NCBI GenBank assembly: GCA_017525025.1
Contig: JAFXUJ010000001.1
Span: 1 to 64,000, forward strand
DNA length: 64,000 nucleotides
Direction of reading: 5' to 3'
Source of the DNA: Elusimicrobiaceae bacterium
Lineage (GTDB): Bacteria; Elusimicrobiota; Elusimicrobia; Elusimicrobiales; Elusimicrobiaceae
Shown: positions 10,421 to 10,943 of the stretch, in pieces
Layout: each line of letters starts with the position of its first letter
How positions within the stretch are numbered: the stretch's first letter is position 1
Notes under the pieces: generated by a model
What the model was told of the DNA's origin: nothing
The model's database searches: none
What the model saw: only the letters and a program-made list of their open reading frames with translations
Translations under genes and position numbers: made by a program

Positions 10421-10491
10421 AGCGGGCGATGGGAATCGAACCCACGTCACAAGCTTGGAAGGCTAGTGTTCTACCATTGAACCACGCCCGC
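10421..10491 (-). tRNA. trnG: tRNA-Gly (anticodon TCC)
   Basis: The acceptor stem GCGGGCG pairs perfectly with CGCCCGC, and the anticodon loop CTTCCAA holds TCC. The anticodon stem CTAGC/GCTTG has a T-T mismatch at its second pair. No CCA is encoded. It is the first gene of the tRNA-tuf transcript. Confidence 0.93.
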
Positions 10492-10593: not shown

Positions 10594-10623
10594 ATTATAG
10601 CATAGTGCACGAAACTTTGGCAA
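10594..10623 (-). promoter_or_regulatory. Strong minus-strand promoter
   Basis: TTGCCA (10618-10623) is followed after 18 bases by an extended -10, TGC TATAAT (10594-10602). It faces the tRNA-tuf operon, with two terminator-like hairpins in between. Confidence 0.65.
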
Positions 10624-10624
10624 G

Positions 10625-10685
10625 AAAAACAACGGGTCCCTAGACCGTTTAAGAGATATCCCCTATGTTACCGGGGACAACTCCT
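10625..10685 (-). other. Hairpin plus terminator following the orphan RNA
   Basis: The minus strand holds a stem AGGAG/CTCTT enclosing TCCCC/GGGGA (10651-10685). It is followed by a terminator with AACGG/CCGTT and a T-run (10625-10649). I see no promoter between this module and the RNA at 10698-10768, so it may be a read-through extension of that RNA to about 144 nt. Confidence 0.45.
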
Positions 10686-10697
10686 GTAAAATAAGAC

Positions 10698-10768
10698 AAA
10701 AAAAGAGGGAGGCCTTGCTCTCTTAACGAGGCGTACCCAATCTTAGTCGGGTGTAGGTGGCACTCCCT
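10698..10768 (-). ncRNA. Orphan RNA of about 71 nt with a three-way-junction fold
   Basis: A perfect promoter precedes it and no reading frame fits. On paper it folds into a closing stem of nine pairs (AGGGAG and GCC with GGC and CTCCCT, one bulged base). This encloses two small hairpins, ACCC/GGGT and CTC/GAG. The 3' strand of the closing stem runs straight into seven Ts, so the closing stem doubles as the terminator. I recognise no RNA family. It could be a free small RNA, or a leader or attenuator for the tRNA-tuf operon downstream. Confidence 0.6.
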
Positions 10769-10774
10769 ACTTCC

Positions 10775-10802
10775 AGTATAACAAAAAATAAGCGAATGTC
10801 AA
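10775..10802 (-). promoter_or_regulatory. Consensus promoter of the orphan RNA
   Basis: TTGACA (10797-10802) is followed after 16 bases by TATACT (10775-10780), and the predicted start at 10768 is exactly the first base of the closing stem. Confidence 0.8.
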
Positions 10803-10832
10803 GCCGGAATTTTCCCCCTCTTCAAAAATTTT

Positions 10833-10871: not shown

Positions 10872-10943
10872 GGTGCGGTGGCCAAGTGGTAAGGCGTCAG
10901 TCTGCAAAACTGATATTCGTGGGTTCGATTCCCGCCCGCACCT
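10872..10943 (+). tRNA. trnC: tRNA-Cys (anticodon GCA)
   Basis: The acceptor stem GGTGCGG pairs with CCGCACC, and the anticodon loop CTGCAAA holds GCA between TCAGT and ACTGA. No CCA is encoded. A terminator follows 17 bases later, so it is a single-gene unit. Confidence 0.96.

Follow-up and report, generated by a model that had tools for sequence, protein, structure and literature searches.

Bacterial small RNAs that act in trans and end at an intrinsic terminator have a promoter of their own, a defined structure, no coding capacity and no dependence on a given neighbor. Among riboswitches, three-way junctions are common, and some of these compact junctions end in an intrinsic terminator; 6S RNA and the bacterial SRP RNA, in turn, are small, stable transcripts of a housekeeping type. 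The gene that we describe here lies in the genome of an Elusimicrobiaceae bacterium (GCA_017525025.1), in a window formed by the first 64,000 nucleotides of contig JAFXUJ010000001.1, and has something of each of these systems. It shares all the listed traits of the trans-acting RNAs, but these usually carry their terminator at the 3' end, whereas here the rest of the RNA lies inside the terminator helix. It has the compact junction and the terminator of the riboswitches, but no conserved gene follows it, it has its own promoter and its orientation varies. Like 6S RNA and SRP RNA, it would be small, stable and of a housekeeping type, although the genome gives no covariance match to 6S RNA (RF00013). 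Also, the ends of the skipping-rope RNA pair and resemble a terminator, as they do in the present RNA. In a permissive scan this family (RF02924) was the only bacterial sRNA family to align over the whole RNA (10701-10780, model positions 1-80 of 80); we rejected it, as its 12.7 bits fall short of the 36.7-bit gathering score and it did not match the RNA alone, the 11 loci or the 20 homologues scanned. Indeed, at the gathering score the window matches no Rfam 15 family, and permissive scans of 11 loci and 20 diverse homologues gave chance-level matches only, so that the RNA does look unlike the known families, as first suspected. We consider it quite probable that the locus is a new, genus-specific, stand-alone gene for a structured RNA of about 70 nt, a regulator acting in trans whose closing helix doubles as its terminator.

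All parts of the gene lie on the minus strand. A sigma-70-type promoter (10775-10802) can be read directly from the sequence as TTGACA (10802-10797), a 16-nt spacer and TATACT (10780-10775). The original prediction had called it perfect, which holds for the -35 box but not for the -10, since TATACT departs from the full consensus and the promoter matches at 11 of 12 positions. On its own it would be unremarkable: in 3 kb, four promoter-like sites matching at 9 or more of 12 positions were found where 3.7 are expected. Seven bases on from TATACT one reaches the first pair of a helix, P1, and the RNA (10698-10768), which is supported by covariance matches, would start at A10768 or G10767 and end within a U tract. 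Both folding and covariation point to P1 as closing helix and terminator, with the 5' strand A-GGGAG-(U bulge)-GCC at 10759-10768 and the 3' strand GGC-CUCCC-U at 10706-10714. Its nine pairs join A10768 to U10706, GGGAG (10767-10763) to CUCCC (10711-10707) and GCC (10761-10759) to GGC (10714-10712), leaving U10762 bulged, and on the 3' side the sequence runs U C UUUUUUU (10706-10698). The seven-U tract (10698-10704) is taken as the tail of the intrinsic terminator from the sequence and from the U-rich columns at this place in 54 distinct homologues. P1 encloses two hairpins, both supported by covariation and a census of loops: P2 (10735-10752), ACCC(GA)/(UU)GGGU, with an ACCC/GGGU core and loops that are usually U-rich in the homologues, and P3 (10717-10732), with the core CUC-GUUAA-GAG at 10730-10720. 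The nine-pair stem around two small hairpins, followed by seven T, is thus borne out by direct reading of the sequence and by folding. The window RNA has a minimum free energy of -29.4 kcal/mol, whereas dinucleotide shuffles average -19.0 (sd 2.9), which gives a z of -3.58, and none of 200 shuffles is as stable. A terminator scan omits the P1 stem because of its long loop.

Downstream of the sRNA, at 10622-10690 on the minus strand, there are two more hairpins, the second of which (AACGG...CCGTT, then GTTTTT) resembles a backup terminator. In several of the homologous loci this place is taken by another hairpin with a T run.

When 101 related genomes were searched at the DNA level, full-length homologues appeared in the window's genus only, which we take to be UBA1436/Avelusimicrobium. 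A covariance model (R1) built on 18 sequences (alignment A1, the window and 17 homologues picked from the DNA search, omitting L019, whose RNA is identical to that of L018) matched 55 of 66 genus genomes at E <=2e-4. A second model (R2), built on an alignment of 55 sequences (A2), was run against 340 genomes of the phylum and raised the count to 57 of 66. A2 and the final alignment of 57 (A3) hold one locus per genome, with 52 and 54 distinct rows respectively. The homologues are full length and occur once per genome, barring weak extra matches in G007 and G023. Among the 340 genomes of the phylum, the covariance search found nothing convincing outside the genus. With R2, 16 non-genus genomes gave matches at E <=0.01; those inspected, a set without G065, G067, G141, L136 (G096) and the places G138:C8 and G295:C366, proved to be terminators with nothing more, inverted repeats, or what is probably coding or repeat sequence, and were set aside. 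The least unconvincing of these outsiders, at L134:1001-1057 (G062, from another family of the order), is junction-like, with GGGAGGC/GCCUCCC ends and 24.5 bits; it is probably just a terminator, though it might be a distant relative. A pattern scan of a named genome collection gave 22 matching records, of which 16 are labeled Elusimicrobia, Elusimicrobium, Elusimicrobiales or Elusimicrobiaceae, five "uncultured bacterium" and one Anaerolineae; the last (L139) appears to lie within a coding frame and was taken as chance. Sources mentioned in the titles of these records include yak rectum and horse faeces; isolates labeled RUG come from the rumen. Viral contigs scanned with the same sequence pattern gave no match.

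Nine genus genomes have no match, and only two of them, G017 and G020, have a full match to tRNA-Cys, the neighbor discussed below. In G020 this match runs out at the contig edge. In G017 (L106) the flank upstream of tRNA-Cys is assembled and holds no such RNA, which may mean that the gene was truly lost, that it moved or that the assembly is at fault. The others are assemblies 72-89% complete, in which presence is not judgeable. The RNA thus appears to be restricted to one genus of gut Elusimicrobiaceae and to occur in nearly all of its species.

Comparison of these homologues indicates that the three-helix structure is under selection. Over the 54 distinct rows, 92.4% of cells are paired against 84.2% in shuffles, 12 of 17 pairs show two-sided changes where 4.5 are expected, and two-sided cells number 62 instead of 11.5; none of 500 shuffles reaches any of these values, in a test whose shuffles ignore phylogeny and whose alignment, being fitted to the model, is biased toward structure. 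As a control, shifting the 3' partners 1-3 columns out of register lowers pairing to 36-66%, and an earlier count on 55 sequences agrees with compensatory changes. P1 is paired in 96.7% of cells, with two-sided changes in five of eight modeled pairs, and P2 in 96.8%, with two-sided changes in three of four; P3 is paired in 82%, with two-sided changes in four of five pairs, and its outermost modeled pair is open in 27 of the 54 rows. A stronger check than the shuffles comes from two distant members, in genomes that R1 had missed, whose loci (L110 and L111) were found by their position beside tRNA-Cys. In these, P1 has been rewritten as GGAACCC/GGGUUCC, P2 reads ACGC/GCGU and P3 GCUC/GAGC, and R2, built without them, scores them at 37.7 and 35.5 bits. 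R2 scoring covered 19 of the 22 long tRNA-Cys loci, the remaining three (L108, L118, L120) being read by eye. Single-sequence folds recover all three helices in 42 of 57 homologues and miss at least one in the minimum-energy folds of the other 15, with a modest stability (mean z -2.0; 27 of 57 below -2). The original prediction had named a lack of compensatory changes, or a match to a known family, as what would speak against it; we looked for both, and the search of related genomes revealed compensatory changes in all three helices, and Rfam no family. The 57 homologues and their covariation thus support a small, compact RNA built on a three-way junction, with a closing stem that is also a terminator. 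These data also bear on the idea that a functionless promoter-like site simply lies beside a terminator. Promoter-like sites are indeed as frequent in the region as expected, but conservation of the promoter, stem and hairpins in 57 homologues, with compensatory changes, refutes such a coincidence, to which we give practically no credence.

Conservation is confined to the unit itself. Mean pairwise identity is 61% in the promoter and 63% in the RNA, and it falls to 32% in the 65 nt upstream (-110 to -46) and to 23% in the 75 nt downstream. The -35 box starts with TTGA in all 57 homologues. The automatically picked -10 is TATAxT in 38 and of a TAC type, mostly a shifted hexamer, in 19, most of these picks being off register, which makes spacer counts derived from them unreliable. 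No reading frame is conserved among the 57 homologues, in agreement with the proposed absence of a coding frame; closed ATG frames exist in only 13 and at differing positions, and a peptide product was accordingly ruled out. From these comparisons, the RNA gene is predicted to have both its own promoter and its own terminator.

Just before the -35 (10803-10812, minus strand), most homologues carry AATTAGGCC, ATTGGGTC or ATTACCCC, and the window has ATTCCGGC. These conserved bases could be a regulator site or a part of the promoter.

A strong promoter followed by a strong terminator could also be imagined merely to insulate divergent tRNA units from each other, with an inert RNA as by-product. 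Most loci do have the gene between tRNA units, and few helices are kept as well as P1; but P2, P3 and their loops, needless for insulation, are kept through two-sided changes, and a plain short hairpin would terminate equally well, which makes an inert insulator very unlikely.

The most constant of these neighbors is tRNA-Cys (10872-10943, plus strand, in the window), which is divergent and lies 94-173 nt upstream of the RNA in 52 of 57 loci. The five exceptions (L058, L068, L070, L071, L092) have it on the 3' side of the RNA, and four of them have tRNA-Gly/Thr on the 5' side. On the other side, in the window, tRNA-Gly (10421-10491, minus strand) lies outside the sRNA unit and is the first gene of a tRNA-Gly/Thr/Thr-tuf group. 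The original prediction saw the RNA as leading into this group, and proposed verifying that it always precedes tRNA-tuf genes. An obvious reading would then be that the tRNA-Gly/Thr/tuf operon is controlled in cis by a riboswitch or attenuator in its leader, with P1 as the regulated terminator. Such a role would agree with the terminator in the closing stem, with the junction, and with the same-strand tRNA-Gly/Thr group found downstream, at 137-926 nt, in 41 of 57 loci. However, 13 loci have no tRNA-Gly/Thr downstream in the same direction despite at least 1,000 nt of visible sequence (the remaining three end too soon to be judged), and tRNA-Cys takes that side in the five loci mentioned. The RNA therefore does not always precede tRNA-tuf genes, and the proposed link to them does not hold. 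The tRNA operon also has its own promoter: all 48 tRNA-Gly genes examined have a TATAAT-type -10 box nearby. Moreover, the stretch directly downstream of the RNA is as poorly conserved as stated above, and by eye no conserved alternative pairing is seen. With flanks unconserved, orientation variable, a separate -10 for tRNA-Gly and no reading frame, a cis role for tRNA or tuf is largely refuted and strikes us as highly improbable. The riboswitch likeness in the original prediction is neither demonstrated nor suggested by the context, as no gene is consistently downstream. The RNA gene appears to be independent of any fixed downstream gene. Nonetheless, the tRNA-Cys/tRNA-Gly neighborhood is common, which leaves a local role some small probability.

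In the five loci with tRNA-Cys on the 3' side, the RNA gene, a unit of ~110 bp, seems to have been inverted between its tRNA neighbors, in an unchanged intergenic neighborhood.

The RNA could alternatively be a stand-alone, ligand-binding aptamer, with a metabolite controlling how far the RNA itself is transcribed or how stable it is. Its compact junction fits, as do the nearly invariant unpaired bases: the A after the 5' strand of P1 (54 of 54 rows) and a U and an A in the P3 loop (50 and 51 of 54). However, the junction is largely variable in both length and sequence (for J1/2, the 54 rows show 37 variants), which is unusual for a ligand pocket, and none of the loci read shows an associated metabolic gene. 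We therefore regard an aptamer as improbable. In 46 of 54 rows, if UUGUAG is included, the P3 pentaloop is UUGUA, GUAAA or GUUAA. A kissing interaction between a U run in the P2 loop and an A run in that of P3 was also considered; by eye, it fits the AACC group only and fails elsewhere, and was abandoned.

Comparison among genomes thus establishes a conserved promoter, a three-helix fold, a terminator-like end and independence from the downstream gene, and it is on these that the reading as a stand-alone regulator acting in trans is built. RNA polymerase would start at the base of P1 and would stop once the two ends of the RNA pair, so that P1 would close the three-way junction and at the same time serve as intrinsic terminator. 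Ending transcription and folding would become a single event, a simple and testable architecture. The sealed ends would presumably resist exonucleases, and the RNA would display two short loops, the U-rich loop of P2 and the pentaloop of P3, which together with the junction may be offered in trans to a protein or mRNA partner. Action through Hfq is unlikely, because Hfq was over the cut-off in none of 21 genomes (5 of 14 controls were positive). Conservation across almost the whole genus of gut bacteria suggests that loss of the RNA is probably costly. A title-level literature search, with subscription papers mostly outside its reach, found no small RNA, riboswitch or structured RNA described for Elusimicrobia. 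The locus would thus add a structured RNA family supported by covariation to a phylum for which we found no small RNAs described, and with the idea of a riboswitch for tuf removed, attention shifts to partners in trans.

A bolder reading makes it a core RNA of the genus, protected by its helix, that would serve as scaffold of a putative ribonucleoprotein or as global regulator in bacteria where neither Hfq nor a signal recognition particle is detected; we see this as a speculative and rather unlikely option. As far as our searches reach, a role as SRP RNA is itself excluded, as the RNA matches neither RF00169 nor RF01854 and no Ffh M domain was found.

No signal recognition particle was detected in the order Elusimicrobiales, including the window's genome (G000). 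The SRP RNA RF00169 exceeds the cut-off in none of 81 genomes of the order (9 of 14 controls), the large SRP RNA RF01854 in none of 21, and the Ffh M domain (PF02978) in none of 21 (14 of 14 controls). The missing SRP RNA agrees with a published study, where few Elusimicrobia are reported to have SRP proteins and several of their SecY sequences to lie on long branches (PMC7987157).

Finally, a second element was observed about 100 nt before tRNA-Gly (10599-10556, minus strand), where a -10 box is followed, usually after 8 or 10 nt, by a hairpin of 6-8 bp and then by GTTTTTATCGG or GTTTTTAACGG. We examined whether the sRNA pairs with it, as both have GGCCUCC-like arms, and dismissed the idea by eye, for in L013 P1 keeps GGCCUCCC while the hairpin is GACCCC/GGGGTC. 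The hairpin is present in about 25 of 48 tRNA-Gly loci (26 script matches, of which L079 looks unrelated), and its arms covary (GACCTCC/GGAGGTC, GGCCCCC/GGGGGCC, GACCCC/GGGGTC). Given its place after this -10 box, the transcript would start with a terminator-like hairpin, possibly a promoter-proximal attenuator.
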